A DNA stretch of 64,000 nt from Coptis chinensis (taxonomy: Eukaryota; Streptophyta; Magnoliopsida; Ranunculales; Ranunculaceae): assembly GCA_015680905.1 (NCBI GenBank), contig CM027378.1:10087001-10151000 (forward strand), written 5' to 3'. Made by a program: the position numbers and the translations under genes. Under the pieces are notes generated by a model. That model ran no database searches. It was not told the DNA's origin and saw only the letters and a program-made list of their open reading frames with translations. How positions within the stretch are numbered: position 1 is the stretch's first letter; each line of letters opens with the position of its first letter. Of this stretch, positions 846 to 25,478 are shown piece by piece.

Positions 846-865
846 CACTACCAAAAATTTGATTT
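846..865 (+). repeat. Left terminal inverted repeat of the CACTA element
   Basis: The segment begins with CACTA, the signature of the superfamily, and is preceded by TGA at 843-845. It matches the reverse complement of 25459-25478 except at two of the first 19 positions and at the last base. Confidence 0.85.
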
Positions 866-1140
866 TCCCCAACAGTAAAGCAAGAGCTTCCTCGATACTC
901 ATCAATCGTCGTTACCTAGCAATGGTTTAAGACTGCAAGTACTAGTAAATGACCGTCACAATTTTTTCGAGTTCGTCATATTTTATAATTGCAACTCTTT
1001 GACACTCATTTTTTGTTGGGAAATGTGTCACATCATAGATGTCGGTAAGAAAAACCATCGCATTGTTATCCTCGATAGTTTTTTTTAAATTTGCTCGATG
1101 TAATTTAACCGTTGGAAGTAGTAATTGTTCCAAATTGTTG
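866..1140 (+). other. Left subterminal region of the CACTA element
   Basis: This stretch has no coding capacity. It is rich in short CGTC/TCGA/CGATG-type motifs scattered on both strands, as expected for transposase-binding subterminal repeats. The 9-mer AACCGTTGG at 1107-1115 recurs inverted at 25333-25341 near the other end. A binding role is inferred from the family, not shown. Confidence 0.5.
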
Positions 1141-1301
1141 CAGAAACTATCACAAAATCTTCTATTATCATTGTTGACTTCTCTTAATTTCTTTTAACTG
1201 AAATTAAAACCTTTTACATTAATATTATTATTTTTTATTGTTTTTCGAATAGAAGAAGCATAATTGTAATAATTTTGAATATGGAACGAGGTTTAAGATG
1301 A

Positions 1302-1346
<45 letters not shown>

Positions 1347-1980
1347 AGACTACATACATATACAACTTTAGACTATTTTAAATATATTCAGTCAAGTTTT
1401 TGTTCAAGTTCCAATAGAACACCAATATTAATTTGTTCCATTCAAGAAACATGCATGATTCACTTATATACTTATCGAATTAAACTTTAAAAATTGGTGA
1501 TAATCATCTAGCCAATTACGAACTTCGAGATAATTAAAATCAAGAAGCTAGTGATGATATTATTATTATTGTTAATTAATTATATGCAGTTAGGTACAGT
1601 TTAAAATTAAGTTTAATATTAGAATCAAATTAATCAATAGGACGAAGCAATATGAAGAGTTCAAACATCAACTATACAAAGTTTAAACTATATATGCAAT
1701 ATATATTAACCTACAAGTTGTTAAAAGGCATGAGCATCACATCCCTCTTTAGTTTTGAAGTGTCAATTTGTAATTAATTAAGGTTGTCGCTCCAAGTGAT
1801 GTCAAAGTTTAAAATCCTGTTTTTTTAGCGTCTCTCAATCCATTGGCGGGGAACTATATATAGGGTGTAGATAGTTATAATGTATACATTAGTGTGAAAT
1901 AATTGGAGTATAATTTGAACACCCCCAAACGACACACCCAATTAGCCAGACATGTTTACACCCCCACCCACGGCCCCTAC
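1141..1980. other. AT-rich non-coding sequence with a 41-base T run
   Basis: I see no gene here. A homopolymer of 41 T residues lies at 1305-1345, and the rest is AT-rich spacer between the CACTA left end and the MITE at 1981. Confidence 0.6.
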
Positions 1981-2264: not shown

Positions 2265-2890
2265 GCCCCCCCACACACACACACACAGTTTAGCATGGTT
2301 TCACCCCATGGAACCGCATACATGCACACATGCACAATTACGTAGACTGTTGACTATAGTAATAAGAATGTAGTAATAAGAAAAGAAAACAAGTGGGCCT
2401 CTAAAAATGGGTTAACATGGTTTTTGCCCATGGACTTGGTTAAAATAAGTGACCCGAATCAGACCCCAAAAAACTTGATCAAATGTGACTGACCTAAGTC
2501 GTGGATGATAACAAATGAGAATGGGGTTATTTCTCGCTGAATTGCTGCGCATATCGAAGCGCCAAACCATCGAATTTCTTCTAAAACACCCTCGAAATAA
2601 CTAACTCCCTCTAAAAGATTGCAAAAAACCCACACTCCCATGGTCGTGCAAGTTAGTTTTCCTCCATCTCCACAATCTAGGTGTTTATATATATGTGGCT
2701 CAGCCATGTCGTTTTTCACAAATCCAGAGCTTTCTTCCAAAGAGTTTGGTATGGAAACTTTTACTCTGTGAAATAGTTCTTCTGCCTTATTAGAATCTTT
2801 ACTTGTTACTTCTTTAATTGTTAGTTTAGTTTGGGACTTTGGTGTTTGTCACTCTAACTGGTGTCTTGCATTTTTCATCTGTATAGACTT
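2265..2890. other. Non-coding sequence upstream of the TNP1-like gene
   Basis: The stretch begins with the CA microsatellite and otherwise shows no recognisable coding sequence. It is probably the leader and first intron of the gene that starts at 2891, because a polypyrimidine tract and a tag acceptor immediately precede that ATG. An open frame on the minus strand (2740-2459) resembles no family I know. Confidence 0.4.
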
Positions 2891-3957
2891 ATGGATCCTT
2901 TGGACGAACAAGATGGTAGCAATTCGCAAGGTGCTGGACAAGAAGACGATAGCAACTTGCAAGGTGATGGACATGACCGTAGCAATTTTCAAGGTGCTGA
3001 TTTGGGTGACAATGAGATAAGTGGTAATATACTGTGTACCCTAAACGTTCTTGTTTTATAACATTTTATTTTATGGTGTTACCATATTTATTATTCTGAC
3101 ACATGTAGGAGGGACACCTGCAGTGACTTCTTCGACCAAGAGAGGACCCTCAAAATCCCCTAAAGCATTACCTGATGGGAAGAAAAGGAAAGTTAGTACT
3201 AATGAGCTAGGACAGCCCAATGGGTTAGATCTGGATACCAGGACATTTATTACCGGGTTAGGAGTGAACACTAGGAAATATGTTCCAATAACATACCAGA
3301 ACTTTCGTGTAGTGCCAATTGACTTTAAAAAAAAAAGTTTTGAGTGTTCTGGAGGTATATTATCTTTTAACTATGTTTATTAAATGTAAGTATGAGTTTA
3401 TTGCTTTAGGACATACTACAGTGTGTACTAATCAATGTTACTTTTACATGCATATTAGGACAATTTTGATTTTGATGACGTTTCACTAGAGTACCTCAGA
3501 GAGAGAATGGATCAAGCTTGGAGAAATCACAGGCATAACTTGCATAAGTGCCATATCAAAGGTAAAAGTTGGGCATCAGTGAGAGCAGCTCCACCCCCTC
3601 CTTTTTTTAACAGAGAGCAGTGGTATTGGTTTCTAGAATACACAAAGAGTGAGAAGTTTCAAGTCTCAATTACATAATCCTGTTTTTTTCTTTGACTCCT
3701 CTTTGATTAAGTATTTGACGACTTTAATTAGTAATGAGCTAATGAATTTTTTTGTTTGATTAACTTAGGCTGCAAGCAAAAGAAACAAGGCTAACCGTTC
3801 GAAACTCAGAGCACCAAATACACTTGGCAGGAGGAGCATGGCTACCACACGGCATGTCATTGTGAGTATGGTTCAATTCTTTTGTGAAGTGTGATAATTA
3901 GGCATATTTTATTTTTTTTTAAAGATGCAATAAAGGAATTAGAATAATATTCCTGCT

Positions 3958-4128
3958 AAAACCGGGGAGATTAGTCCAGGAATATCATTTGCCCTTACAT
4001 CTGATAAATCTATTCTTGCTAGCCTCCTATACTGGTTTGATTGGGAATTGCCTAGTGGTGTAGAAAAGAAGGATGTGGATATGACTGAATCTTTTGGTCT
4101 CACAGTTAACCTTAAACTATTCTATTAA
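3958..4128 (+). pseudogene. Captured C-terminus of a cytochrome P450 (CYP71-clan type)
   Basis: Fifty-six codons read in one frame to a TAA. Motifs include SPGISFA, LASLLYWFDWELPSG and DVDMTESFGLTV, the invariant end of plant CYP71-type P450s, from just before the heme-binding loop to the C-terminus. In a working enzyme the loop reads RRxCPG. Here it reads GEISPG, so the cysteine that ligates heme iron has become serine. No other part of a P450 is visible nearby. The fragment lies inside what should be an intron of the TNP1-like gene, on the same strand, and was most likely captured by the CACTA element. The exact P450 family cannot be decided from 56 residues. Confidence 0.8.
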
Positions 4129-4392
4129 TTCCAGTGTCTCCCTTCTCTTAATCCCTGCAAAGGTTCTTGCGTCATTTTCATTAATATGAAGAGAGTGGAA
4201 TGTCAATATGTCACATACTATGTTCTGTTAATAAGAATAATGTTATCACGCATTTACTGTATATAAGATTTGCATCTTATCCATCCCCTGCTTTTCTTTG
4301 CCATCGCACCTCTGGCTGTTAGAACAATGACTAAGCACTTTCGGCTTCATAGTTAGTCACAACCCCAAGTCTTTGTGCAAGAACTCATATGA

Positions 4393-4590
4393 TTACATTT
4401 GCACATTTTCTGCACATAATTTATGTGCCGTCATTACCCATTGCCAAGAGAGGAGCCGAGCCGCCTGCGTGTTGATTTTCACAACATCACTAGCGGTGGG
4501 TATCCAAGACACTTGCTTGATCTGATCGACCATTTGTATCTGCATTGGAAATTTGTGCAGTAAAGAGAGTTCAATAGGGTCATTCTTCAT
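4393..4590 (-). pseudogene. Possible LINE/RNase H-like fragment
   Basis: The minus-strand frame contains VSWIPTASDVVKINTQAA, which resembles the W-PP---VKINTDGA start of the RNase H-like domain found in plant non-LTR retrotransposons and related proteins. The catalytic aspartate of that motif would be glutamine here. The match is short and I would not build on it. Confidence 0.3.
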
Positions 4591-6120
4591 ATAGCCATGT
4601 TATGATAGGTTACTTTGGTTGTATTGCAAAGCTAAGACTTCCAATTCTTACAAAATATGCAAGAACATTGAATTTCTTGAATTATTATTTGTTGAAAACA
4701 TGAATGTTGTGAAACAGATTATAAAGGAAACAAAAATTCAGCAAGCGTCATGCATAATGAAGACCGGCCTGTAGGCTATCTTGAGCATGAAAACTCCACA
4801 TATGTTGTCCATGTGCAATGTGCACTTATGTTTGGGGACATCTAGATTATGATACGTTTAGAGATGCCATTAGGAAAGCTGACTTGGAAAGTTAATATCA
4901 TAAATTGCAAAACCGAAATAAAACAACAAGAATATCCATAATTCCGTATCCTTGTTAGAAAGTGGCACATACACGCAAATGTCATCTGCACATTAAATTA
5001 ACATAGTTGCTTTTTATACTCACATACACCTATATTTTAAGGCTGTGGAAAACAAGTTCAAGTCTGACTTGGAGGTTGGGAGGGCAGAGGTATACATTTG
5101 AGCCCATACTAAGAAAGACAAAACCATTCAGTGCCCTGAGATCGCTGTAAGTGCTAAAAAATTGACTACATTTTATTCTTCAGTCACTCATAGTTTTACA
5201 AAGTTTATTAGTTTATATATTGCTAACTAGTTAAAAATGTTTTAGGAAAAAATTCAAGGAATTGTGAATTCTGATCCTTCGTCCAACATTTTGAGTGTTG
5301 ATGATGCACTTGCATAGGCAAGTTATACTTAATGCATTGGTATATATCTTTATATATTTATTCCATCTGTTTTTTATGTGTAAATCGGATTAGTCTACAG
5401 ACACTTGGAAAAGACAAAAGTGGACGTATGAGAGGTATGGGTGCTGGTGTTAGTAGTACCATGGTGAAAAAACTGCTCTAGTTATGAAGAAAAATGAAGA
5501 GTTGAGATGTGAAAACACTACTACAAATTCAAAGTTAGACAGGTTAGAAACAGAGCTTCAAATGGTGAAGGACATGATAGTGGCATCACAGGTACATGTG
5601 GTAGGATTATTGAACTTTAGAGCGGTGTTGTTTCTGGTTTTCCTTAGTTGCTAACATGTAGTTTGTCTACATTTAGCCTGCATCCCAAACTCAAAGAAAT
5701 CCTATTTCAGAAACACCTACTGTAGAAGTTCCATTAAGGCAGCCTAGTCAGGTATATTTTTTTGGGATAGTTTTATATATTGGTGCATTTTTATATGGTG
5801 TATTACTTTAAAAAGGTATTTATGTTAGTTCAAAATTAATGCAGATGCATTATTCATTTATGAACAAGATGAGAGATTTGCATTTTGTCGGGGGCTTAAA
5901 GGTTGCTAGTGGAGAGATTGTTGTAGTAAACCCACAATCTATTTTCCATGGTAGGCCTATGGGAGAGGGGGTTTTCAAAATTCTCTTAACTAAGGTGGTT
6001 GACAGTGAGGCCAGAGTGTTCTTTCCAAATGATTTTGCTAGTACACTTGGAGAAGTGGGTGTGCATGGATATGTCACTTGGCCAATAGCTTTTCTGCAAG
6101 TTCCAAAGGACGACGCTTAA

Positions 6121-6591: not shown

Positions 6592-7241
6592 ATGGGTAAG
6601 GAAAAGATTCATATAAGCATTGTTGTTATTGGTCATGTCGACTCTGGGAAGTCCACAACCACTGGGCATCTGATCTACAAGCTCGATGGAATTGACAAGC
6701 GTGTCATTGAGCGCTTTGAGAAAGAAGCGGCTAAGATGAACAAAAGGTCTTTCAAGTACGCATGGATTCTTGACAAGCTTAAGGCTGAGCGTGAACGTGG
6801 TATCACCATCAACATTTCCTTGTGGAAGTTCGAGACAACCAAGTACTACTGCACTGTCATTAATGCTCCTGGACATCGTGACTTTATCAAGAACATGATC
6901 ACTAGAACTTCCCAGGCTGATTGTGCAGTCTTGATCATTGACTCAACTACTGGTGGTTTTGAAGCTGGAATCTCCAAGGATGGACAAATTCGTGAGCATG
7001 CTTTGCTTACATTGACTCTGGGAGTGAAGCAGATGATATGCTGCTGTAACAAGGTATTATTGGCTTCACCTTTTTTTGTATTTTCTTTTGTTCATATCAC
7101 TTTTGCTAGTGTGAAGTTTTGTTACTTATCTTGTAAATTTGTGTTTATTCCTTTTGGTTTTGTTTGTAGATGGATGCCACCACACCTAAGTACTCCAAGG
7201 CGAGGTATGATGAAATTGTGAAGGAGGTGTCCATAACTTGA
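6592..7241 (+). pseudogene. Truncated elongation factor 1-alpha gene fragment
   Basis: Exon 1 (6592-7053) encodes the N-terminal GTPase domain from [20 protein letters not shown] to MICCCNK. Exon 2 (7170-7241) gives [20 protein letters not shown] and then a TGA. The intron (7054-7169, GT...AG) sits where plant EF1-alpha genes have theirs, so this is a genomic copy and not a retrocopy. The P-loop GHVDSGKST is intact. The switch II motif DAPGH reads NAPGH, losing an aspartate needed for GTP hydrolysis, and other invariant positions are changed (LDGID, MITRTSQ). About 155 of roughly 447 residues are present. EF1-alpha delivers aminoacyl-tRNA to ribosomes; this piece cannot. It lies inside the CACTA element on its + strand. 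Confidence 0.88.
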
Positions 7242-8092
7242 GGAGATCAGTCCGGGAAGCTGCTCTCTCAGCTCACTGCAGTCTTGCAACATGGATTCAT
7301 CAAAAGAAAATCATTCCTATGATGGCTCCGGACATTTCTTTGTACCTTTTGCAGGGACTTGATTATCTGGTGCCAATCCCACCAAGGTGCTTGGAATTAA
7401 GAGCAAGCGACTCTTTCAATCTCCTGATGATACCTACTTACTTGAGCGATTAGCCGATGGTCCTCCATGGGGAAACTATGATGAAATAGGGAGTATGTTG
7501 ACTGACATGGATTGACTCCCCAAGTACACAAGCCCAAATAATGGATTTCGTTCAGTAAGGGGTTCAAAATATAATGCTTCTGATGCCGAGGGATCATTTT
7601 ATCTGATTTTCATCTCTGCATAGCACTGATATTTGAGATAGCCAATTCATATAACTTTTCGTCACTCTTCAGTGAAATGTCCACCATCTGCGCAGTTCAG
7701 ATTATAATGGTATACGTTTAGCCCACATAGGCCCCTACCATAAAGACTAGCTTAATGCATTTCTAAGTTCGTGTATACCTGAACTTGTATTACACCATTG
7801 CGGTACACATCCAATTGTTGAATTTGTCAGGTAAAGAGATTTTAGCAACATATATACAATTCTTCCCCCCAATCATCACAGAGGTCCTTTGGACCTTCCC
7901 TAGCACAACCCTGGGTGAACTCATGCTGCTGAGGAAGAGTGCATCTTGGTTCTCCATGATGCTAGGACTACTCTGTTGGAGCTTGACAACATTGTTCCCT
8001 TAGTTATTCGGTATACCACGTCATCCATGTTATGAATACACAACCAGTTCTACACCTCAACCTCCCTGGCACACAGTGTTGCGACTTATCAC
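7242..8092 (+). other. Unidentified gene-like sequence, probably captured
   Basis: Directly after the EF1-alpha break, one frame starting near 7291 reads MDSSKENHSYDGSGHFFVPF. After a stop it continues ANPTKVLGIKSKRLFQSPDD and LLERLADGPPWGNYDEIGSM up to about 7515. The composition looks like real protein and the frame is broken. A second coding-like patch at 7930-8000 reads ECILVLHDARTTLLELDNIV. I do not recognise either. The hAT MITE at 8093 interrupts this sequence. A captured host gene is the likely origin, from its position and orientation. Confidence 0.4.
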
Positions 8093-8523
8093 CATAGTAC
8101 AAAATATCAGGATATGGGTATTTATCGATACTCAATTTCTGGATATGTATCGTGAATATATCCTTCTCTTTGGGGATATTTGACATTGTTTCACATGCAA
8201 ATATCGTAGATATATCTAAAATATTGACAAATATCGTGGATATTGTGGATATTTCTTGATATATCATGATACATTATTTATATTTATTTAAATTATAATG
8301 GTAAATATTAAATAAAATTGTTATATACACAAAATATCGTTAAATATCTCCAAATATCACAAAATATCTCTAAATATCACAAATATTGCAAATATCATCA
8401 AAATATCGCCGATATTTGCAGTCTTATATATCTCTTAACATATCGTGATCTTTATATATCTTTTTCTGAAATCTGGATAGATATCCCCAAATAACGCGAT
8501 ATATCGAGATATTTTGTACTATG
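8093..8523. mobile_element. hAT-type MITE made of ATATCG-like repeats
   Basis: The ends form a perfect 16-bp inverted repeat, CATAGTACAAAATATC and GATATTTTGTACTATG. The flanking 8-mers CTTATCAC (8085-8092) and CTTGTCAC (8524-8531) match at seven of eight positions, the duplication size of hAT transposition. The 431-bp interior is mostly degenerate copies of aatatcgtggatat and has no coding capacity. The internal style is the same as in the element at 12338, although the terminal repeats differ. Confidence 0.78.
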
Positions 8524-8630: not shown

Positions 8631-11274
8631 TGTCACACCCCGAATTTCGATAAATCAGATAATAATAATAATATCCGACTCCTCGATATCCGAGATGTGA
8701 CAACAACCTCACAACCCAATCTATATCATAACCCTAATGAATAATAATACATGCGGAAAAACTAAACAATAAAATACTCAAAACAATCCACTCATCATTA
8801 AGAAAACTTGTGATAAAAAATTAAGTTACAAACTTCTTCACTTAAGAATTCGGAAAAATAAATTAAACATATGTCCCCAACAAATTCCACTACATCTCTG
8901 AGGAAAAATGAAATGACATCTTATTAAAAATAAATGCTAACATCAATCACGAGTAGCACGCCACCTTTTCGAACATCAGCTAACCCTGTCCAAGCTGATC
9001 GACTATGTTCATATAAGAACACACCCGATTAGCAAACATGCAAATCAGGTCAGCATTATAAATAATGCTGGTATGAGTAGCCTTAGCAAAACCATTTAGA
9101 CATACATAATATTTCATTCTTTACATGGTAGGTAGTTCCTCCATCGAGGCGCCTCAGCTTAAGGTAGTTAGTTCCTTCATAAAGGCACCTTAACTTCTAA
9201 CTAAGAGTAAATAACTTAGGTCAGCCTAGTACATACCTTTATGCATGCTCTATCGCAGAATGGGTCCTCTCTGCAAGAATAATTAGTTTAACCCACTCTC
9301 CTGCAAGCAATTTGTAATAATCATAGAAAAAATGAAACTTAACTTGAAAGTCTTAAATCAATAACTACAAATGAGGAAAATATCATGGCAGTAACATTTA
9401 TCAAGTGTCCCTAGTAACCCGTCGTCTCTATGTTTTACCTAGTTTTCCTGGTTACCACAATCGCTACCCAACGCCGAACATGTACATCCACATGCCTCCC
9501 CTTACATAATGTACCACTCGTGCGTGTAACTACCTGGCGGGATGCGCGACACCGTAACCCTCACACGAAAAGCCATTATGTAAGTAATGCCACTATTCGG
9601 CATAAAAGTAACGCGCGTCTCGTTCTAAAGTTTGGCGAACGAGATAATCAAGCCACTATTCGGCTACGCCAGAAGGGCCATTCAGATTGCACATGCCCAC
9701 ACAGGGCCAATCAAATTGCACACGCCCACACAGGGCAAATCACATGAGTTGTGGTAGCTAGGTTCTAGGATTTTCGTTACGTAATTTATTCAAACGTATA
9801 TATCTATGCATCTTAAAATTTCTCTATCTTCACGTGTCAAAATTTACACCAGATCGACGTCAAATCTATATTAGATACTGACAAACAAGTTTATACAAGT
9901 GTCACCCACATCCTATCATCGGATTGGTCCATAAAATCAATCTATAACATTTTTGGAAAAAGTCAACAGTCAACGGGTCAACAGTCAACCCAACAGTCGA
10001 CGGTCCTAACCGATGGTCATTCCACCCGGTCCTCACCCAAACCCATATTTAAAAAGAGTTCAAACCCTGGTCCTAATCGACTGGCTAAACTGACCCAGTT
10101 TAACCCGGCCCATAAACTAATCTGGCCCAACTGGAAATTTCAAAACTAACTAGATCCCATGCGATCCAATTCAAATTTTAGGACCATCCCACATAAACCT
10201 TTTAAACCGGCCCAAACCAGAACTGATAGGGTCCGGCCCAACTAATTAGTCCCAAGTCAAAAAGTATACCGCGACCTGGAGCACTAGATCGCTCTCACGG
10301 TCATCCCCTTCGCAGCAACAGCTGCTAGCTTCCAGCCACCCCCAAAAATCCTTCACACACCACCCACCAATAACTCAACGAAAATTGTGTGGGTGAAAAA
10401 CCCCACAACTTTACTTCACCAATCGACCCCAAATTTTCAGTTTTCGCAATCCCTCTCAAATCACAGATCCGACTGCCATTAATGTTCTTGGAGCTCTTAA
10501 CCACTCTCAAACTTTCCCCCTACCACCATTCATTCAACCAACAACCCTCAATACAAGAAAAATAGTTCAAACACGGAAAATAAATACAAAAAAACAAATC
10601 CCTCAGTATCACAGTAATGGGAGTAATGACGTTCTTTACAGGGGAGGAGGTTTGGGGCTCGCGCCTCCCTTTACCACCACCTAATGGTGTTGACAGTCCT
10701 AACAAATCTACCAAGTTTTAAACCTTCACAATAAGAATACTCTTTGAACAGAAAATAGCAAAAAATGAAAGATGAACAGAACATGGTTTTGGACATACAG
10801 TTAACTGTGTCTATATACGGGAAAAATACGAAAAATAAACTACTCACTTCCTATGTTATCGGCAACAGAAAATATCGAAGAAAATAATGAGAGAACCAAT
10901 CCCAGCTAGCTCGCGAAATCCGCGTTCTTCTCCGTTTTTTGCTTGTGTGTGTTGTTTGTGGTTTTCAGGAAAAACTAGTTTCCAAAGTACTAAATATTCT
11001 TATATCATACTATGGAAATATTATTTCTATTAAAAGTATATATATATATTCCTTAGGTTAATATCTTGTTTCCTTTTTATTTAAAGCTTTCCAAAAATTA
11101 AAGATAATCTACCCACATTCAAAATTCAAATATTATTTTCCTATATTAACATTTTTTTGAAATTACTATTTGGTATTCCACATGCTAGCACGTTGACCAG
11201 AAAAATACAGTCAAATACAGAAAATATTAAATATTGTTACGCAGATAATGTAAATATAAAATAGGGGTCTTACA
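8631..11274. mobile_element. Solo LTR of 2.6 kb
   Basis: The segment begins TGTCACACCCC and ends GGGGTCTTACA, giving the TG...CA ends of an LTR with partly inverted termini. It is flanked by a perfect 5-bp direct repeat CCATG (8626-8630 and 11275-11279). No gag or pol coding is visible inside, so a solo LTR left by recombination is the simplest reading. TGTCACACCCC starts are common among plant Ty3/gypsy LTRs. It sits within the CACTA element. Confidence 0.72.
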
Positions 11275-12337
11275 CCATGTTTGACTAAACCCAACGAGGC
11301 TACGACCTCATTATTGAAATGAAGTTCGTCAACCAGATGAGCAGCAGAAATGAAGACCAAGTTCTGAATTGAAGTCTTTGTATGGCATTGAGATCTGGTA
11401 GCATACTATATTAAGCATTAATACCGCAGTTATGGCCACAATATTCCTCAACATATCTACTAGACATCAAATATTTCGCTTAAGAAATCTTCTAACTTGG
11501 GCCACTTTTCCTATACAGTGTTAAGAATCCTTGGTTACTTGTCATCGCTGTAAAGGGGTGTTTTGGTTTTCCTTTAGATGCAATGAAGAGAGGAGAAAGG
11601 GTTGAGGTTTTATGGAGAGACCGAGTTCGCTGATGAGCGAGCTGCCTACGTATCTTCTCTTGGTTTTTTCAGGGGAGAGAAGAATCAGGTCTCACGTAGT
11701 TCAAGTAGGTGGTATTTATAGGCCTAAGGGAGTGTTGATCTCTGAGACACGTGTACCCTCTTGTACATGTGTAGGGTGGAGATTATGAATGTGTGTTGGA
11801 CTGGTTTTAGTATGAGTCGTGGGCTGATTGGAAGTTGGTGAGGTAGTCCCTATTTCCCGGTGGTGGGAAGTACAAGTAAGATTTTGGTAATTATAACACC
11901 TGGTGGTGTTTCTGTCTGAAGCGTTCTGTCTCCAGCCGTTTGTTCGTCTTGAGACATCCTTGAACGAGCTTAAGCGTACCACCTACATGAAGGGAGCTGC
12001 TCACAGATCGGTCTTGGGGGTCGATGTCCTGAGTTCGCTTATGCTTCGCGCGTGTACAATATTCCTTAATGAGGATATTGCTCCCCTACAATCGCTAGTT
12101 ATATGTCTTCTACATTTAGAGAGATGTAATGTGAAGGAGAAAAATGAAACTCCGTGAGAGCATCTGGATGAGCCAGAGACTGAAAGAGGTCAAATACATA
12201 AGCGCTGTGAAAGTCCTTTTTGTTTTTTTTTGCTTACTCCTTTAATTGGCTTTACAGTTTTAAACAATGTCTCTCTTTTTTTTTGGTAACTAGTTTTAAA
12301 CAATGTCATATTGGACAGTTAATTATGTTGGCTAACT
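11275..12337. other. Non-coding sequence with an LTR-like block at about 11570-12170
   Basis: No gene is supported. The block around 11640-11750 has the string gctgcctacgtat and the TATA-like tatttataggcc, a combination common in plant LTRs. A similar block occurs at about 35160-35260. Ends and target duplications could not be found. Confidence 0.3.
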
Positions 12338-12693
12338 CAAGGCCCAAAATATTGTCCATATATCCGATATATCGCCGATATATATCCACCGAATATTGAA
12401 CCTTTTTTTCCGATATATATATCGGAATTTCCGATATAACGATATATATCAACCGATATATCCGATATAAATTGTTGACTTTGACCGATATTGTTGACTT
12501 TAACCGATATATTGACGATATTTCCGATATAATTGATGATATTTCCGATATAATCGACGATATTTCCTATATATCGACATACAAAACAAAATTTTGACTG
12601 GTCAACAAAAAAAGAGATATCTCTTATATATCCGATATATATCGATTTTTTGGTACACCGAAATATTTACCGAATTCGATATTTTGGGCCTTG
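12338..12693. mobile_element. hAT-type MITE with perfect TIRs and target duplication
   Basis: The inverted ends are CAAGGCCCAAAATAT and ATATTTTGGGCCTTG, perfect over 15 bp. The flanks carry a perfect 8-bp duplication GGCTAACT (12330-12337 and 12694-12701), which identifies hAT-type insertion. The 356-bp body consists of ATATCG/CGATAT motifs. The perfect duplication and ends imply a comparatively recent insertion. Confidence 0.88.
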
Positions 12694-12794
12694 GGCTAAC
12701 TTGAAATGGATGGGATCAAATGTTATCCAAGTTTACAAGAAAATTGTCTTTTGTGAATGATACATGAGTCCACTTTGTTCTATAAAAATGCTAC

Positions 12795-13450: not shown

Positions 13451-13988
13451 ACCAATGCCCCATTAGTTACTCACCAAAGCTTCTCCTACCTACTTAAAGT
13501 TTTGATTAGTAGGCGGATTGTTGTTTGTTTATTTTTATTTTTCTTTGTTATTATTTTTTAAATTTATATAAGTTTTTTAAAGTTTTTTCCACATGTACCT
13601 TTGTTCAAATAATTTTCGGGGAATTAAAAATCGAAATAAAAACAAAAAATAATAGTGGATGTGTATGAACCCAATGTATTTTTAAAAATTCAACATAAAT
13701 TGAGAAAGTCCAACCTTATTTACTATACCAAAATACAAAAAAATAAAAATGGGATTCTTTTCTTATATTAATACGAGAATTCTTCTTCAACTAAAACGAA
13801 GATTATATCATACTTCTTAATTAAGTCAACTATTAACAACTTCAAATGGATCACTCCCTCTATTGAAATGGGTAACGGGTTTTCAAAGGTATAATTGGTT
13901 TTAAAATTAAACCAATTTGTTATGAATTTTTCATTTGTTTTAATCATGATTCTTGAGCAAATTTTCAAAAGAGTTGTTGCGTATGTGG

Positions 13989-14496
13989 TAAGGGTGCAAG
14001 TAGATATCCAAATATTCAAATCCGATTCAAATTCGTATTCGAAAAATCAGATATTATCTGAAAATTTCGGATATTGGATTTGGATTTGGATAATTTTTTA
14101 TGTCCGAACTAGTTTCGGATTCACCATATCCGCATCATATCCGAAAATATCCGATCCGATTTAAAATTTTAATAATTATTATATATAATTTATTTATTTA
14201 TTTATTTATTTATTATGGTATAAAATATTATATAAAATCATAAACTAGTAATATAAAACTATAATAACCAAATAATAATAATAAATGACAAATATATATA
14301 TTTATAATAGTTTTTATAGTGGTAAAATGAATTATTCAAAGAAAATAAAATTTTAATTAATATTAATTTTCTGATTGGATATTATCCGATATCCGATTCG
14401 GATATCCGAAATTGGATTCGGATTCGAATATCGGTATAAATTTTCGGATTTGGATACAGACATATCCGAATCCGAACCTATCCGTTTGCACCCCTA
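13989..14496. mobile_element. hAT-type MITE rich in ATCCGAA repeats
   Basis: The ends are TAAGGGTGCAAGTAGATATC and, inverted, TAGGGGTGCAAACGGATAGG. Flanking 8-mers GTATGTGG (13981-13988) and GTATGCAG (14497-14504) share six of eight positions. Both arms carry ATCCGATTC/CGGATTTGG repeats around an AT-rich centre. No coding sequence is present. Confidence 0.65.
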
Positions 14497-15145
14497 GTAT
14501 GCAGTATGGTAGTATGTAAAAATATAATCTTAATTTGGTATTAAATATGCTAAATATTTAGTTTTTTTTATGGGAATAATTAAAATGAGTTTATGACAAT
14601 TAATTGAAGTTTATTAAGAATGAAAAATTGTTAAAAACGAAGAGGAACTTGGATTATTAGTTAATGAAATTTTCTTATCAATTTCAGGTTTCACCTCTTG
14701 CCATAAGATGTGATTGCACCGTTGAGATACGAAGCAACATACATCTCGATGCGAAACGACTGATGGTTTGTGAAGCCACACATGTGTTTTAGTAAGGGAT
14801 ATCGTTTTGAATCTCATCGTCTAAAGAAAAGCAACTAAAGTGGGAAGTTCCCATAAAACAGTTATGGGAACTTCCAATCTATCTTTTCTCTATCTCCTCC
14901 TTCCCCCTCAATACAACCTTTTCTTTTTACTCTCTTTCCCCAAAGTTAGATTGTGTATATCTACCGTCACTACCAATTCAAGGTTTTACGTGACCATCGA
15001 TTAGTATTAACCAAGGTTTTCTCTTTGATGAAGTAAGCACTTTTCTTCAATATTAAATCTTATTTTCAGTTGTCTAATTGTTTATAATTGCATAGATATA
15101 TGCCTTTACCTATCTAAATTATGATTGTTTTAAACATGTTGCAGA
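14497..15145. other. Leader region of the TNP2-like gene
   Basis: No separate gene is seen. A pyrimidine-rich stretch at about 14880-14945 and the acceptor ttgcag at 15139-15144 suggest untranslated leader and an intron ahead of the ATG at 15146. Confidence 0.35.
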
Positions 15146-18100
15146 ATGGAAATGGGTGACTCTGCAAAAGACGACAGGTCCTAGATTGAGCTTAGTTTTC
15201 CTTATCAACATTTTATTGATGGTGTGTCGAGCTTTGTGAAATTCGTGCAAGTTCGTTTTCCTGATACAGAGATGACACAATGCCCATGTAATATGTGCAA
15301 GAATCAACGAATTCCAGTTCCATATGAAGAAGTGAAGATACATTTGTTCAAACATGGTTTCAACCCAGCTTATAAGATTTGGTACTTGCATGGTGAGAGT
15401 GAAACATTTGAGCACGCCAATAATGAATCAAGATTCCATGACCACCAAGAAGATGTATACATGGATGACTTTGACGAGCTTCTCATAAACTCAATGGCTC
15501 AAGATTCTGGTGGTAATCCAAATGCTTGTGTCCAAGATAAACCAAACACGGGGACTTAAGGTGAGAACAGATTCAGAGAGGTACCACCTACTGAGTTAGG
15601 AAATATGCCAGAGTATCTGAACCCCTTGTATAATGGTAGTAAGTACAATGTGCTCAGGTTTACACCGAGTCTGCTAAACCTAAAAGTGGGCCATGGAAGG
15701 AGCAATAGAAGTTTTACTGAGCTCCTTCAGCTTCTAAAGGATGAGTTACCTCCAGATAACAACACCCCAAAAAATACTCATTATGCGTCGAAAGTCATTA
15801 AAGAAGTGAAACTTGGATATGAGAAGGTTCATGCTTGTCCAAATAATTGTATGTTGTATTGGGGAAAACATAATTCCAAAAAGATTAAGTGTGACACATG
15901 TGGTGTGTCTAGGTTCAAGTTTGATGGAAGAACAAAACAGCGAGTCCCTACGAAGATATTGAGATATTTTCCAATAACTCCAAGACTGCAAAGAATGTAC
16001 AGCGTGCCCTAGGTAGCTAAAGAGATGACTTGGCATTCAACCGGAAGAATGACACCCGGAAAGATGAGGCACCCAGTCGACTCTAACACATGGAAGTCCA
16101 TGGATAGAAGGTATAAAGATTTTTCATCTGATCCTCGTAATGTTCGCTTGGGATTATCCACAGATGGATTTAATCCTTTTGGCACGTTTAGCACAACACA
16201 TAGTTGCTGGCCTGTATTGTGTGTACCCTATAACCTTCCACCGGGTTTATGCATGAAGCCACAATTTACAATGCTCACACTACTCATTGAAGGCCCAAGC
16301 CAACCAGGGAAGGACATTGATGTGTTTTTGCAACCTTTGGTTCGGGAGTTGAAAGTTCTCAGGGGAGAAAGGGGTCACAACATTGGATGCGTTCACTAAT
16401 ACCGAGTTTAATCTTCGTGCTATGTTGTTGTGGACAATACATGACTTTCCAGCATATGGGGATGTTTCTGGTTGTAGAATGAAAAATTTGGCTGTCCTTG
16501 TTGCAGTCCAAAGACAGATTCTATGTGGCTTCGATATGGAATGAAACATACGTTCATGGGTAGCAGGAGGTGGCTGTCAACTTTAGATAGAAGCAGAAAA
16601 GACACAAGTGCTAACACTTTTAATAAGAAAAAGGAGTCTCGTGGACAACCAATACGTTTGAGTGGGGAAGTAGTGAAAAAAATGACTGCTGGACTAGATG
16701 TGGTGTGGGGGAAAACTAAAAAAAATAAAAAAATAAAGGGGAGAGAAGATGATGAATATGTGGATGGTGATGCATCAGCTTGCTTCTGTAAACAGTCAAT
16801 TTTCTTTAAGTTTCTCGAGTACTGGGAGCATATCCCTGTGCGCCATAATTTGGATGTTATGCATATTGAGAAAAACGTTTGTGAGAATTTGATTGCATTG
16901 ATGCTGAACACAAAAGGAAAAACGAAAGATGATGCTAATGCACGTAGAGATTTGAAGCGGCTGAAAATCAAAAAGCGAGTATGGCTGCAAAAATAGAATG
17001 GAAAGGAAATTTAGAGGCTTGGTCGTTATTGGCTCATGAAAGAAGAGAAAAGGCTATTTCTCCAGACACTATGTGATTTACGTGTCCCTTTTGGTTTTAG
17101 TAGCAATTGGAGGAATATTGTCACAGAAGATGGTATGGACTTAAAAGGTGCACATATGAAGTCTCATGACTATCATATCTTGATGCAGCATTTGCTTCCT
17201 ATGTTGATCCAACATGCATTTAAGGATAGGAAGGAAATTCGCCCTTTAATTATAAGTTTCTCTTCATTTTTTAATGCTCTATGTTCTAAGATTATCGATG
17301 TTGATTCACTGTTAATATTAGAGAAGGATATGGCAAGGACACTATGTGAACTTGAGAAGTATTTCCCTCCGTCAGTGTTTGTTGTCATGATGCACCTGCC
17401 TATCCATTTGGCTTATGAGGCTAGGGTTTGTGGACCTGTTTATTATCGATGGATGTATCCATTTGAAAGGTATGGTGTAATTTTGATTATTTACATTGTA
17501 GACATATTATTTGAAATATGTTATACTTAACACGTCGTTAATATTGAAGGTTTATGAAGACTTTTAAAGGCTATGTTGCAAACAAAGCTCGACCTGAAGG
17601 TTGTGTGACAGAGAGATACCTTGATGAGGAGGCAATAATATATTGCAATCAGTACAAAGGAAAAGGTAAAACAAGTATTTTGAAAGAACTGGAGGAGAAA
17701 ATGGATGACTCTGCTAAATCTTTAGATGATATTGATGACAATGGTGAGGCTAGACCAGTTGGCGTAGGTCAGACCTTTGTCATCCATGGTATTGAATATG
17801 AACAAGCTCGCCATTGGGTACTCAACTGTCATCCTAAATATGAAACGTGGCAAAGGTATGCGTTATTGTAACCCTATATATTAAATTATCATCGTGCATC
17901 TTTTGTAAGCTTAAATGTTCCCCCTTTTGCTTTAAGGAAATACACTGAATTCATACAAGAACGTAAGGCAACTTTAGGAAAGAAATCTGGACACTATAAG
18001 GTTCCTAGCGAAGAAGAGTTTTTACCCTGGTTGCAACAGCAGGTACTAGAAAACAACTTAATATTTGCCTGCTTTTAATTAATCAAATCTAATTCTTTGT

Positions 18101-18784
18101 TGTTAATATTTACAGATGGAGATCGTTGACTCTACGGATGTTGATTTCTTAGATATTATTAAAGGACCTTTGTCGATTGCTACGCGCTACAAGAAGTACT
18201 GCATAAACGGCTTCCTCTATGTTACCAAGGACCATGAGAAAACTAAAAGGTACCAGAACAGTGGGGTTAGCACAAATTGTATAACCACTTGTTGATCTAG
18301 TGCTAAAGACAAGAATCCAGTAGATGAATCATTGATGTACTATGGAGTTCTCAAAGATATCATCCAGCTAGAGTATCGAGAAGGGTACAAGCCTGTCCTC
18401 TTTAAGAGTGATTGGGTTAAAGTGACTCACCATGGTGTTAGATGTGATAAGGAAGCGAATCTAAGATTAGTAAATTTGTCGAACTTTGCTAGTTATAATC
18501 AATTAGGTGACAAACCATTCATTTTTGCACAAGATGCTAACTAGGTGTTTTACTCTAAAGATCCCAAGGAGCCGGAATGGCATGTTGTACTAGAGGGTCC
18601 AGCAAAGGCATATTATGAAGATAAAACTTGTATTCTTCCCAATGAATCGGTCTTAACCAGTGCTGAAGTTTGAACCAACAATAGTGAACAGGCAATGGAT
18701 GATGAGCTGATCTATAATGATCCTGACGAAAATGTAGTGGTTGTTGAGAAGACTAATATACGAAAGCGGTTGAGGAAGCAATAG
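15146..18784 (+). pseudogene. TNP2-like CACTA transposase gene, decayed
   Basis: Domains appear in the usual order. The transposase-associated domain (15146-15420) has CPCNMCKN and KHGFNPAYKIWYLHGE. The tnp2 catalytic region (about 15600-16990) has LSTDGFNPFG, YNLPPGLCMKPQF and MHIEKNVCENLIALMLN. DUF4218 (about 17036-17480) has HLPIHLAYEARVCGPVYYRW. A DUF4216-type C-terminal domain (about 18330-18540) has YGVLKDIIQLEY, and the gene ends RKRLRKQ. The protein would cut and rejoin the CACTA ends in the nucleus. In-frame stops occur early (15182) and repeatedly later, and frameshifts occur near 16390 and 16530. Introns with GT...AG signals remain near 17470-17550, 17850-17935 and 18040-18115. It is the largest coding block of the element. 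Confidence 0.85.
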
Positions 18785-19529
18785 GTATTATTATTTGTAG
18801 TTGTTTATGTGGTACCCTTTTGCTGGCTAAGAAAGTCATTTGAATTGTATATTATTTGACAATTGATTGTTTGTCTTTTTGAATGTATTATGTGGTGCTA
18901 GTGAATTTTAAATTACCATCTTCTAGGTAAACCTTTTTTAACTCTGCCAATGCCAAGTTTTTGCTTAGCATTGCCGGTCCCAAGCCCGGATAAAGGAGGA
19001 GGGAAAAAGGTAGGTTTAACCTTTAATAATGGAACATGGTGGTCTTACCAGGTATCATTTCTTTGTTGTTTGTAGTCTTTTGCTCATATTTTTCGTGCGT
19101 TAAAAATGTCTTTGTATATATTTATTAATTCTGCACACATCTGTTAAGGTGTGTGGTTATTTTTACACGTTGCACCTTAGACAGTATAGGCTATCTGCAT
19201 CTTATGCATGAAGAATATGGGCTCCAATAGCTAATAGAAATCAGGAATAATTGTTGAGGCTTGCATATTTAGTCTTTTATTATCAATTTTAGTTGGAAGT
19301 GGATAAAAGTGAATTACATCATTGGATTGATAGATGTTGTTGTAGATCATTTCTTTAGTGAATTACATCATTGCATCTTCAGTTATAAAAGCAGTGATAA
19401 AAGATTTTAAGATGATGTTCACTTGATAGATTTGTTTACATTTTTAAAAATCTTTCCATTTGTAAGTAAGATGTTCTACTTGTTAATTCTTCTTCTCCAT
19501 TTTTATTTTTTACGTGTTTCCACAGGAAT
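18785..19529. other. Spacer after the TNP2-like gene
   Basis: No gene is seen. A GC-richer block at about 18970-19005 (ggtcccaagcccggataaag) stands out from the AT-rich background but I cannot assign it. Confidence 0.3.
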
Positions 19530-20542
19530 ATTTCGTCTAAGAAGTATGGTCCCTTTATTATCTTTTCTCTAAGGCTCACTCTCTCAATGCAAATAATTGG
19601 GTTCTTTGTGAGGATGGCGTCTTCAGTAATATGGATTCAGATTTACAGAATGGGGGTTTCATGTGTAGACAATACACGGGAAGTCAATTATGATTTACAA
19701 AGTAGTTTTTTGACTCCCTCAACTTTTGCCGCAACTAGACAGAATTCTCACATTCTGATGAGATTTTAGGAGGCTCTATTTATAATCCAGCTTATTTCTC
19801 ATCTCTTTTTGAAGATGTTCAAGAGAATGGATCTGCTGATGGGGTAGTGAGTTTCTTTCTCCTTTTGTTTTGAATCCTTTTACTTTTCTTCTTTCTATGT
19901 TATAGATGAAATTTCCATGATCCCGTTAGCTTGTTTTGACAAAACCCAGTTGATTGAATGCCTGAAATATGTACCTTCTGGAAAGAAATGAAGGCGAAGT
20001 CACTAGTGAACATGCGTAATCCATATTGGAAAGAAATGAATGCAAAGTCTTTGAAACATAATGGGAATACTATTCTTTGATTTGATATCTTAGACTACAT
20101 CTTACAAGTTTGAAAAGATTGTTTTGTAAAGCATGCTTTGGAGAAGGGATCGAGATTGTGGCAATTGGCTAGTAATTTACTAATTTAGTGGTGTAATGAC
20201 TATTCAACTTTTCAGTGGTTCAACTTAATGCTGTTTTCCTTTAGGTTCTCCCTGATTAGAGGTATTTAGTTTCTTAGCATTGAATAAATTCTTATCCAAT
20301 TTTCACTTGGGAACAAAAAAGGCAGATTAACAAAAACAACATTAATAATGACAAAAACGTTTCCAATAGTTCAATGCGAATTGTTAGTTTATTTTTTTTT
20401 CTTAATTTGTATAGACTCATTCATCGGAATTATTCTTTTTGTAGGAAAATAAACTTGATACTGATGGTGACCGTGGGTCTTCACCCCTTTCCGAATCTTC
20501 ACAACTAAAATCATGCATCAGCAGATCTTTCCAAGTTGTTGA
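19530..20542 (+). pseudogene. Two exon-like blocks of an unidentified gene, probably captured
   Basis: The first block (about 19560-19845) contains NANNWVLCEDGVFSNMDSD, then after frame changes LGGSIYNPAYFSSLFEDVQE followed by NGSADG. It ends at a possible GT donor. The second block (20446-20541) is preceded by the acceptor tttttgtag, reads ENKLDTDGDRGSSPLSESS and onward, and ends before GTGCGT. Composition and splice signals look like a real plant gene. The stops and frameshifts make it a relic. I do not recognise the protein. It is on the same strand as the transposase and the other captured pieces. Confidence 0.45.
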
Positions 20543-21866
20543 TGTGCGTAACAGACCCTAATTATGATTTTTATTTTATTTTTGTTTTTACGTAATGATT
20601 ACCTTCAGTTCGGGTAAGACTTTCTATCGTTTTTAAAAACAATTCTGAGAGGGAAATTTCTATTTTTGAAGAAAATATAAGAGGGCTTAAAACGGGGATC
20701 TCGACCAATTGAAACTATTACAGAATGTTATAAAGCACAAAATCTGGCAGTTAGAGTTGTTATAATAGCTTATAGAGTTTCCTTTGAGTGGTCTCTTCAT
20801 TAAATTATCAGTTTGGCAACACAGTACCTATTGCTGATTTACTATTTAGTGCTTGTCACTGAAATTTTACACTTCTGGAACAGGTATGAGAATGCAAAGG
20901 CCACATCACACGTTTTTTCACTTGGTGTAGATCTTTCTTGAAAAGCGGGACATGGTCACAAATTCACAATGTGGCTTGTCAGCCTAGCAGGCCAAACATC
21001 CAATACTGAGCTCATTAGGGTAACCTTGTACTTGGATTGCATTAGTGCTTGCGTTTTATGGTTTGGGGGCACCCTTTTCCATCTTTTCTGAACTCCCAAT
21101 TCTTCTTCTTTTCAAATTTTTTGATCAAACTCTAACTAGGCAGTTAGGTAGTGTACATAAATGGGAGCTGTATAGTTACTTATTTTTATTCTTTTCTCCG
21201 ATATAATGGGTATATAATATGAGAAATACAGCAGCCCTGTTTATTCTCCAGAGATAGTTTTATTTTCTCTGTCGTTCAGTTTTAGCAAGTTACTCTGTGA
21301 AGTGTTGTGGCGTGGCTTGCTTATTCACTTTAATGGACATTATTTCTGGTCAAATAATCCGGCGTAGTTAAACATGAGGTCTTGTCAACCTTGAATGTCA
21401 GCTACGTTCTTGTCTGTCTAAGTTTTGGTTAGATTGACCAGGAGCATGACAAGGAGATAATCATAGCAAAATCCTCAGGACTCCTCTACCTTTGTAAGCT
21501 CTGGAGTGGTTCCACTGGCCATTTGCATTCTCTTGGTGGCCATCATCATCATAACTAAGAGGACTGATATTTTGTTCTCCTTTTCTTTATACTGCATTTG
21601 GCTCTTTTATTAGGTCTTCTTGTCCTTTTCTTTACTAAGGAATCTAAATGTACAAATGTTGTACCTTCCATTTTTCTGTCTATACCTTCTATTTTGTAGT
21701 CTATAACTTCTATTTTTCAGTGAATCACTTAATATCCCTTAAGGCTTGAGGAGCTATGATTAGAACCTGTATTCATCATCTTGGATCAAATCAATGATTT
21801 ATTTTTGTTTCACATACTTTTTGGAACTTCGCTTGTTATAAATTAGCTTGCACATTGATATCAATC
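20543..21866. other. Non-coding sequence between captured fragments
   Basis: Nothing convincing is seen. A patch at 21430-21560 (RLDQEHDKEIIIAK) could be a further broken exon, but it matches no family I know. Confidence 0.3.
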
Positions 21867-22230
21867 TTTACACGACTGTTGGAGATCTTTGGTGAAACAA
21901 AATCCATGTACAAAGAAGTAGTTTTAGGCGGTGATGTTTGGGATCTTCTTGACAAGTTAATGATTTATATGGGAAACCCTATGCAAAGATTACTCAGAGA
22001 GAAGTGCAGTTTTGTTCGGATAATTTTTTCTAATTCTTATTTATTACATACTATTTTTAATCGGCAATATCTTATTCTTTTTGGAATAAGCTTAGTTTCT
22101 ATTGGTAGATTTTGATGTAGCTCTTTGGTGTCTGACAGGGTGTTCTTCTCTCTGGTCCTCCTGGAACAGGTAAAACACTTTTTGCACGGACACTTGCAAA
22201 AAATAGTGGAATGCCATTTGTTTTTGCTTC
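21867..22230 (+). pseudogene. FTSH12: Captured fragment of an FTSH12-type AAA protease gene
   Basis: Exon-like block 1 (21867-22018) reads SMYKEVVLGGDVWDLLDKLM and IYMGNPMQ, then carries two small indels before the expected FVRG. Block 2 (22139-22213), after a tctgacag acceptor, reads GVLLSGPPGTGKTLFARTLA and KNSGMPFVFAS with an intact Walker A motif (22154-22177). It then diverges before the expected TDSEKSG. The residues around the Walker A motif are those of plant FTSH12, the AAA protein that works with FtsHi proteins and Ycf2 in chloroplast protein import. Only about 75 residues of a protein of about 1000 remain, so nothing functional can be made. It sits just upstream of the CDC6 fragment, same strand. 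Confidence 0.78.
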
Positions 22231-22826
22231 TGAACATCAGGGTGTTGCTTCTATCTGGTTCACTGGACTTGACTTTGGTCCCTTCATGAACATCAGTTTC
22301 GCTTCTTAATTAGTAGGTGCTTTCTTCTTCTTCATTTTATTTTGTTTGTTTCTTATAGAGATAAGCTAATGGTTCAGACTTCAGAGTATTTATATTTCTC
22401 ATACTTGTATAACACTCTACGCATACACATAGTTTGAACGTTTAATTATATTAAATACTGGCCAAGTTTTGGGCAGTGGTGTTTGTTGCGTAGCATTTCA
22501 CTTGAGCTAATTTGCTTATGCCAAGCTGTTCTATTCTACTTGAGCTAATATAAAATGTTCAACTATTTTGCTTTAGGTGAGTTAAAAAAAGAGTATCCAA
22601 ACTGTTTGACCATAGAGTCCATTTTTTTCACAGAATTGACAAATGAACCCTGACATTGTTAACTGTTTTTTTACTTGGCGTTTGGTTAGACTTTACCTTG
22701 AATAATATGTTACTTAACTTTGAGTCATAACTATTTTTAACATTATAGGTAAAATGAGCAGATCACTTGAATAAAGTTCTTCTTTCCACTTGAAGGAAAT
22801 TATAACAATAGTCACAAATTTTACAG
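22231..22826. other. Spacer between the FTSH12 and CDC6 fragments
   Basis: The sequence is AT-rich and shows no coding blocks. The CDC6 homology starts abruptly at the acceptor at 22826, so the junction of the two captured pieces lies here. Confidence 0.4.
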
Positions 22827-24705
22827 AAAGTTGCAACTACATCTGGAGATATGAGGAAAGCCCTCTGCGTTTACAAGTCAGTATCATTATGGCTGTGGAG
22901 GGTTTGCTTGTTGCAGCATACACTAGTTTTCATGATTTTGATTTTCATTCTCAAATTGTTGATCTGCATAATCATGCTTTCATGAAACTCATGCTTTCGC
23001 GAAGCAAAGCTTGTAAACATATTAGTCTTTTTGTGTTTGAAATATCAAATATCTTTAAGTCCTTAATATTAAATAAGAAAAAGTGAAGAACTATGGATTC
23101 ATCACAATGGGAACAGGTCACAGTCTATTACAAGATCTGCATTGAAGAAACAAACTATTGGTATCTGTTTCCTTGTCCTAGAAGAAAAAATATTTCTGTG
23201 GTGATTCATAGTCTTTTTATTCGTTATTTGTTTTTTCTGTAGGGAACTAAAACAAATAAATTATTTGAAATTTTCAAGTCTACATTTTTTCCCCTCAATG
23301 AACACATGTTTACACCACTACATTCTGTTCATTGCAGGAGTGCCATTGAGATGGTAGAGGCAGAATTAAGAGATTCTAGCAAAGACAATGAATCATCCAC
23401 CCGAGAATGCATCATCGGATCTATTTAAAGCTCCTTTAACTGACTGCTTGCTTAAGCAGGAAACTAACATTGTAATCTCTTTTAGCAGAACATTGTTAAA
23501 TCCAAGTTCAGTACATAATCATCCAAAGTAGTCATCCTTCTCATTTTCTGACCATGAAGGTTTTGACTTCATTTGCAGGTAAGGGTTGATCATATGACTT
23601 TAGCTTTGTCAAGGACGTTTAAATCGACAATAGTGGATACCATACAGTCACTGCCTCAACATCAACAGGTCGGTTCTGCTTAGTTTCCATCTAGTTATAA
23701 CTATGTCATACACTATATCTATTGTTTTCATCAGGTCAACTAAAATGTAATTGCAAAACCTAAATTCTACACATTTATAGCCCCTTGTAATTATATCCTT
23801 GCAACTTAAGTTCACTTGTAAAATTTATTAGCCTGGAAAAACTTGTAACCAAGTTCTTGCTCGTCATAAAGCTGTAAGGGAACAAACTTCTATATTATAA
23901 AAGGAATTCAGTTTTGCCCAGTTTTTAGCTGTCAAATACTCATTGATGGTTTCATGGTTACTGGTACGCTGAAAAACTTTAATTAGCCCTTCTTGTGCTT
24001 TCACATTATAACATTCAGGTTTTGTTTGTGAGTTACTCATACACTTGTCACTGCAGATCGTACTTTGTTCTATGGTGAAGCTTTTCCGTGGAACTAAGAA
24101 GGATACTATTGTTGGAGAGGTGTGCTCTCTTTCCTTATATTCATTTTTAGATTTTGAAGTGGCCATTAAGATACTCATTGCCTATTTTTGGTGCAGCTGA
24201 ATAGATCTTACATTGACTTGAGCAAATCAGCACAAATTCCTCCCGCCAGCTTCCTGAAATTTTCAAATATGTGTAGAGTGCACAATGACCAGGTGCTTGG
24301 AACACCACTCAACCTAATGATTTTTCTCATCTTCTAAAACACCGATATTCAGATCAGAATCGATTCAATTTGTGTGCATGACTCAATTACATAGTCATGT
24401 CGCGGCCTTGTTGAGTTGGGTGCGACCCCTATATTACAAGAGAAAACTAACAAATCCCACGCTGTTTGGTATGCAGGGAATTTTCAAAATGGGCCAATCT
24501 CGGGATGATAGATCAAAAAGAGTAACACTAAAAGTTGATGAATCAGACACCATGTTTGCCTTGCAGGTACGCATCAAAGTATTTCCAAGGCATCTTATGC
24601 TCAAATTATCAATCCCTTCATAGAAGTGAAACATTTTTCTTATATTTTTTGGAAATTCCTTTGGCTTCACAGGCAATTAGATTTTTTCGGAACTGTCTCC
24701 AGTAA
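22827..24705 (+). pseudogene. CDC6: Captured 3' half of a CDC6 replication-licensing gene (seven exons)
   Basis: Exons are 22827-22876, 23338-23471, 23579-23668, 24057-24119, 24197-24292, 24477-24566 and 24673-24705. All internal introns are GT...AG and phases agree. The reading runs KVATTSGDMRKALCVYK, SAIEMVEAELRDSS, VRVDHMTLALSRTFKS, IVDTIQSLPQHQQ, FSNMCRVHNDQ, RVTLKVDESDTMFALQ, AIRFFRNCLQ and TAA. This is the end of the AAA+ lid and the winged-helix domain of plant CDC6, which loads MCM helicase at origins. The Walker A and B exons are absent. One frameshift lies in exon 2 near 23400, where the frame changes before NASSDLFKAPLTDCLLKQET. Conservation is otherwise striking for a relic. Confidence 0.87.
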
Positions 24706-25458
24706 CCAGGAAATTTCTTCTTGAGCTGGATATGGTGGCTATTTGTTGCAATGTAGGCCATTACTTTCGACAATTCTTTTGGACTCACTAAGCGAGATGA
24801 GCTGCTGATAATCCATTGATTTCGGGAGCTAAACATTCTATAATGTAGTATAAGAAATTGTAATTTTTTTGTACTTCTATGTCATGTACATTGATTTTTA
24901 ATAAAAAAAGGGTATTGGTTATAGAACTTTGTTTGAGGTGGTTATGTGGTGTACGAATTGTTTTTATATTATAATCTTTAGCGACTATGCTTTAGTATTG
25001 GTTTATGCCGTTTTCAACCCCAAAGCTCGTCATTGTTGAGAATTAATGACACATTCTGCAACAATTTATAAGTGTAGGCCATTCTGAGAATTTAAAGCCG
25101 TTGGAAAAAAATTGGCTATACTGACCATTTTGAGTCGTCGAGAAAGTTGTCAATATTTGCAAAAGAAATTAGTTGTTGGCAACTCTGATGACTTTAAACC
25201 ATTGAAATATCTTGTTTAAGCCGACAATTTTGGGTCATCATGCTAACTGTTGGAATTCTTGACAAGCCTTAGTTGTCGTTCTGGGTCATAGTTGCAAACA
25301 GTCGCATAGGTGTCGCAGATGTGGAAGCATTGCCAACGGTTGTAGTGACAATTTTAACCCGTCAATGATGCATTTGTGACACCACCTTCGCTAATGACTT
25401 TTCTGACAGCCATAATTATCACGAAAGCCTTTTAGTGACAACTTTTAGCCATCGAATT
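24706..25458. other. CDC6 3' flank and right subterminal region of the CACTA element
   Basis: The first ~200 bases are probably captured CDC6 3' UTR. From about 24985 the sequence is a mosaic of short motifs such as gttgtc, gtcgtcg, ccgttgg and gacaatttt on both strands, typical of CACTA subterminal repeats. CCAACGGTT at 25333 is the inverse of a motif near the left end. Confidence 0.5.
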
Positions 25459-25478
25459 ATATCAAATTTTTGGTGGTG
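25459..25478 (-). repeat. Right terminal inverted repeat of the CACTA element
   Basis: Read inward on the minus strand it is CACCACCAAAAATTTGATAT. The fourth base is C where the left end has T, so the canonical CACTA tip has decayed to CACCA. It is followed by TGA at 25479-25481. Confidence 0.83.

Follow-up and report, generated by a model that had tools for sequence, protein, structure and literature searches.

Positions 846-25478 of the 64,000-nucleotide stretch of Coptis chinensis DNA analysed here (C2:10087001-10151000, hereafter the window) form a single CACTA transposable element of 24,633 bases, which holds pieces of four host genes besides its own transposase genes. We consider it likely, as far as sequence comparison allows, that this decayed, formerly autonomous member of a multi-copy Coptis chinensis family took in host DNA stepwise, a cytochrome P450 (P450) piece arriving after pieces of EF1-alpha, FTSH12 and CDC6. 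Gene capture by CACTA elements is already known, and one capture step is unusually well documented here: the mechanism of capture is usually inferred, whereas in this case an empty site, a filled site and likely donor loci occur in one genome.

The element entered as one unit, as seen from its ends, the duplication beside them and a host reading frame that can be rejoined across it:

843-845: target site duplication TGA, left (sequence).
846-863, plus strand: left terminal inverted repeat CACTACCAAAAATTTGAT (motif search).
25461-25478, minus strand: right terminal inverted repeat, one mismatch in 18 (motif search).
25479-25481: target site duplication TGA, right (sequence).
25482-26542, with about 10 codons more from 842 downwards, minus strand: interrupted hAT-like (DUF4371) gene (Pfam, frame rejoining).

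The left end begins CACTACC and the right end CACCACC, and the 18-bp repeats differ at one position. Searched across the 64 kb with up to three mismatches, CACTACCAAAAATTTGAT matched just twice, at the two element ends, and no second full terminal repeat was found inside the element; shuffled windows (n=100) gave a mean of 0.19 matches, and none had two. With a much looser 14-base end pattern the window had 34 matches, the expected mean being 17.6. Inside the element, only position 5516 equals the right end in its fit to this pattern, and the full repeat is not matched there. Few short direct and inverted repeats near the ends came out of a subterminal repeat search. Leaving out the element and one TGA joins ENEFAFYVHYFAH to QLQLVISAQK in one frame (FYVHYFAH followed by QLQLVISAQK), with a stop 10 codons beyond the junction; QLQLV is a motif that we take to be conserved among hAT relatives. 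Because the host frame ends after these 10 codons, the hAT-like gene would either have been decayed already, or have had an intron at the insertion site, when the CACTA element entered.

Two genes of the element itself were recognised:

2890-6120, plus strand: TNP1-type gene (Transposase_24, PF03004), several exons, decayed, ends approximate (Pfam).
15185-18790, plus strand: TNP2 transposase gene (PF13963, PF02992, PF13960, PF13952), several in-frame stops and frame changes, ends approximate (Pfam).

Joined exon pieces of TNP1 matched PF03004 with E=1.9e-13, and one of its coding pieces contains an in-frame stop. In TNP2, PF02992 was found within one open reading frame (E=5.8e-49) with PF13963 and PF13960 beside it and PF13952 as well, the domains being in order. 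CACTA-type inverted ends, a 3-bp duplication, a TNP2-type transposase and a second gene of TNP1/TnpA type place the element in the CACTA (En/Spm) superfamily. An autonomous CACTA element has intact transposase reading frames; here both TNP2 and the TNP1 piece are interrupted by stops, and further signs of decay are an altered intron donor in the FTSH12 piece and a frameshift in the CDC6 piece. Pack-CACTA elements, by comparison, have host gene fragments between CACTA ends, of which the window element has four, and lack a transposase gene, whereas TNP1 and TNP2 are still recognisable here. By its sequence the element is probably a decayed and formerly autonomous member of its family.

The captured pieces lie on the strand of the transposase genes:

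3945-4991, plus strand: 1,047-bp insertion of filler type within an intron of TNP1, similar to a family of P450 pseudogenes on C9, without target duplication (sibling and donor comparison).
6592-7231, plus strand: EF1-alpha fragment with exon 6592-7053, intron 7054-7169 (GT-AG) and the start of the next exon (homology).
21888-22234, plus strand: FTSH12 fragment, two exons at about 21888-22019 and 22139-22234 and their intron (homology).
22827-24705, plus strand: CDC6 fragment of seven exons and six introns, reaching the stop codon (homology).

The EF1-alpha piece runs for 154 codons without a stop. The closest solved chain to the FTSH12 piece in the PDB is FTSH12 itself (8xku_B), and its intron donor reads AT where GT is expected. 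The CDC6 piece agrees with residues 330-514 of Coptis P0051 at 168 of 185 residues (about 91% identity); all six of its introns have GT-AG ends, and exon 2 contains one frameshift. P450 homology covers 3967-4116, where 42 of 50 residues are shared with Coptis P0001. By Pfam alone this piece is weak (E=0.089), and a PDB search with it returned no P450. A plus-strand Pfam scan detected EF1-alpha, the AAA domain of FTSH12 and CDC6 and missed P450. A comparable scan of the three minus-strand frames of the element, which may likewise overlook a piece of that sort, gave no gene piece and one unrelated match (E=0.017). Two further stretches were searched for gene pieces: among 22 candidates for the coding-like stretch at 18.9-21.8 kb none reached E<=0.01, and two of its pieces submitted to Pfam had no match; 7237-8088 gave no match in the search, and one piece from it reached E=0.14 only in Pfam. 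Since introns are kept in the pieces, capture at the DNA level is supported. These results bear out an earlier note on this DNA, which had described one CACTA element with matched ends and a TGA duplication, both transposase genes inside it, and P450, EF1-alpha, FTSH12 and CDC6 pieces on the plus strand, several of which keep introns, and which were captured as DNA.

To place the captures in time, sibling copies were sought in the 935.6-Mb Coptis chinensis assembly. The left-end query gave 39 matches including the window's own, and 22 of the others, compared along almost the whole 355 bases, have 91-97% identity. The terminal repeat (at most three mismatches), sought in the plus orientation, was present in 13 of 14 plus-strand siblings, the exception (L015) being without the first bases; the eight minus-strand copies among the 22 stand outside this count. 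Two siblings were compared in full, one of 29.8 kb at C6:78223526 (target site duplication TCT) and one of 8.3 kb at C9:17069810 (target site duplication ATA). The window's left flank is unlike all 13 sibling flanks compared, and these unrelated flanks and different target site duplications rule out segmental duplication as the origin of the siblings.

The C6 sibling has TNP1, EF1-alpha, TNP2, FTSH12 and CDC6 exons 2-7 in common with the window, exon 5 being split there by 0.9 kb; the C9 sibling shares TNP1, EF1-alpha and, of CDC6, part of exon 5 with exons 6 and 7. Between window and C6 sibling, Kimura two-parameter distances (K2P) were 0.042-0.053 in four blocks that extend from the left end as far as TNP2 and include it, EF1-alpha being in one of them. 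The FTSH12 block gave 0.041, and two CDC6 blocks gave 0.033 and 0.044; the captured blocks thus fall within the range of the other blocks or just under it. This similarity shows, to the extent that divergence dates the blocks, that the EF1-alpha, FTSH12 and CDC6 pieces were already in the common ancestor of the window copy and the C6 sibling. At a substitution rate of about 6.5e-9 per site per year these two copies would have split roughly 3 million years ago. The EF1-alpha piece was present in nine of ten siblings checked, two of them stopping partway through it. The sibling search that the earlier note had proposed for shared pieces therefore gave a divided answer: EF1-alpha is widespread, and FTSH12 and CDC6 are in the C6 sibling, whereas the P450 piece is missing from all informative siblings and present in a single other copy. 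Additionally, the C6 sibling is without window 19061-21630, the stretch with coding-like pieces, and carries different sequence where the window has 22594-23115. At 9743-18534 (L031-L032) it harbours a nested long terminal repeat (LTR) retrotransposon with 1,023-bp LTRs that are 96.6% identical. A six-frame scan of three of its private stretches (L031 6855-9901, the whole of L032 and L033 4801-7098; two shorter ones of about 0.5 and 0.9 kb lay outside it) found, among other pieces, a retrotransposon-type gag domain.

The P450 capture can be read base by base. Its site was informative in ten siblings (C6, C9 and 8 of the 12 fetched; the other 4 of the 12 did not align there), and all ten run straight on from GGAATTAGAAGATTAAATTAAC without the insert at this same junction. 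One other copy, C2:70053975, has it with identical joints, by which an insert private to the window copy is ruled out. PF03004 pieces flank the insert and thereby identify its site as a TNP1 intron. The comparison of these copies shows that the P450 insert came into this intron later than the split from the C6 sibling. Two fetched P450-like loci on C9, both free of CACTA flanks, match the insert at 89-90%, and three further places near 65.4-65.5 Mb on C9, not among the fetched loci, match it too. In the two fetched loci and the insert alike, a NIPAK motif stands close to EISPGISF and most of the stretch that separates them in P0001 is gone, so these loci are P450 pseudogenes; as both continue into P450 upstream beyond the insert, they are donor-like. 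P450 pseudogenes on C9, a chromosome other than that of the window, are therefore the likely donors. Compared with the two fetched loci, the insert shares one base (A) at its left joint and three (ATT, 4992-4994) at its right joint; one element base (G) was lost and no target was duplicated. The joints apparently look like those of filler DNA that was copied in while a break was being repaired; they point to break repair inside the element rather than to the excision of copies lying side by side.

For cut-and-paste elements, capture through break repair following excision has been proposed (as presented in PMC3260210). For the older EF1-alpha, FTSH12 and CDC6 pieces we infer entry in the same manner as for P450, i.e., ectopic DNA would have been copied into a break inside the resident element. 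None of these three pieces overlaps a recognised TNP exon, probably since any insertion breaking TNP1 or TNP2 would have been lost while the element was active. Judging by the sequence, the captured pieces are passengers. Some points weigh against this interpretation: the full-length comparison rests on two siblings only, the shared runs of one and three bases could be chance, and the repair route is supported for the P450 piece only. A bolder version, which we regard as rather improbable, would see in the family a running record of templated break repair that gained ectopic host DNA mainly in introns and spacers, cleanly splicing sense pieces being kept more often because they would not disturb the TNP transcripts.

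Equally doubtful is a route proposed for Arabidopsis Pack-CACTA elements (according to the review PMC13317346), by which two adjacent copies whose end deletions complement each other leave as a single unit, taking with them the host DNA in between. FTSH12 and CDC6 adjoin each other near the right end, as this route would allow. It fits the P450 step poorly, because this piece lies in a TNP1 intron, within an otherwise collinear element, and has repair-type joints; nor does the element hold the second full terminal repeat that was looked for inside it.

The uniform orientation of the pieces had been taken as a hint of selection for read-through transcription or of a mechanism tied to it. For the window the uniformity holds, as all four identified pieces are in sense (1 in 16 by chance), and as a rule it fails, since the C6 sibling adds an antisense pentatricopeptide repeat (PPR) piece (L031 about 8632-8712). 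That piece is outside the nested LTR retrotransposon and may lie in a further nested element. The same sibling also adds a sense prolyl-tRNA-synthetase piece (L033 about 6758-7090) directly before CDC6, at the place that exon 1 of CDC6 still occupies in the window. Taken together, 5 of 6 pieces in the two copies are in sense (P about 0.11), so that on present counts there is no orientation rule, at most a leaning. That sense orientation is selected, or mechanistically imposed, via read-through transcription and splicing of captured exons consequently seems to us even less probable than the co-excision route. The sense majority, the GT-AG ends kept in the EF1-alpha intron and in each of the six CDC6 introns, and the splicing of captured pieces as exons of a host transcript described for the soybean CACTA element Tgm-Express1 (PMC1947982) speak for it; the non-GT donor of FTSH12, the P value, the antisense PPR piece and a PPR piece of opposite orientation reported in grapevine Cactavine-5 (PMC2528002) speak against it. 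Chance is most simply the explanation for the four sense pieces of the window.

About 3.4 kb of the element consists of repeats that became nested in it later, each with its own target duplication; they could be placed by their ends and include hAT-type miniature inverted-repeat transposable elements (MITEs):

8093-8523: nested hAT-type MITE, target site duplication CTTATCAC/CTTGTCAC, 7 of 8 alike (ends, duplication, empty site in the C6 sibling).
8631-11274: nested LTR-like unit of 2,644 bp with TG..CA ends, target site duplication CCATG, probably a solo LTR (ends, duplication).
12338-12693: nested hAT-type MITE, 8-bp target site duplication GGCTAACT (ends, duplication).

Both MITEs are rich in ATATCG-like repeats. 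Three more MITE-like repeats, at about 1980-2265, 13209-13450 and 13989-14496, have related sequence (GGGTCGGGT / CCGAATCCGA) and less clear duplications. That the captured pieces belong to separate elements nested in this one, which the earlier note had named as the finding that would overturn it, is highly improbable: nested units with target duplications do occur inside, but those located by their ends hold none of the P450, EF1-alpha, FTSH12 and CDC6 pieces, the P450 joints have no duplication, and a full terminal repeat was looked for inside the element in vain.

Elsewhere in the window, a long open reading frame at 29605-31281 presumably encodes a 3-ketoacyl-CoA synthase-like protein, and a minisatellite of about 1 kb with an 86-bp unit occupies 62514-63492.

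Captures of different ages within one family could be used to measure the rate, orientation and route of capture. A literature search on Coptis returned no title on CACTA captures in this genus among the best 10 of 424, which does not imply absence in print. So many unrelated pieces in one element had been thought unusual, a view that Tgm-Express1 contradicts: its 5.7 kb are described as holding five fragments of unrelated host genes, exons and introns included (PMC1947982). It resembles the window element in combining several such fragments inside one CACTA element and differs in its size and its listing as non-autonomous (in PMC2613891); the window element spans about 24.6 kb, has decayed TNP1 and TNP2 genes and was later invaded by nested repeats. 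The Tpn1 family of Japanese morning glory, as outlined in PMC5105172, is likewise of En/Spm type, its copies capture genic regions, and it includes a putative autonomous member, TpnA1, with TnpA and TnpD; in its non-autonomous copies the captures replaced internal sequence, whereas in the window element they stand beside the transposase genes. On wheat chromosome 3B, 140 CACTA-mediated capture events are reported (PMC4290129), in which the captured genes are mostly fragments, as here; some of those are stated to be transcribed and under selection. Captured fragments outside the transposase coding sequence are also described for grapevine Cactavine-5 and Chenopodium CACTA elements (PMC2528002, PMC8978399), the PPR piece of Cactavine-5 being opposite in orientation in contrast to the window's four sense pieces. 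Finally, the Pack-TYPE elements known as Pack-CACTA share the gene fragments between CACTA ends, but are defined in PMC8903248 as non-autonomous and kept apart from elements with a transposase match, whereas the window element has its captures together with transposase genes that are broken.

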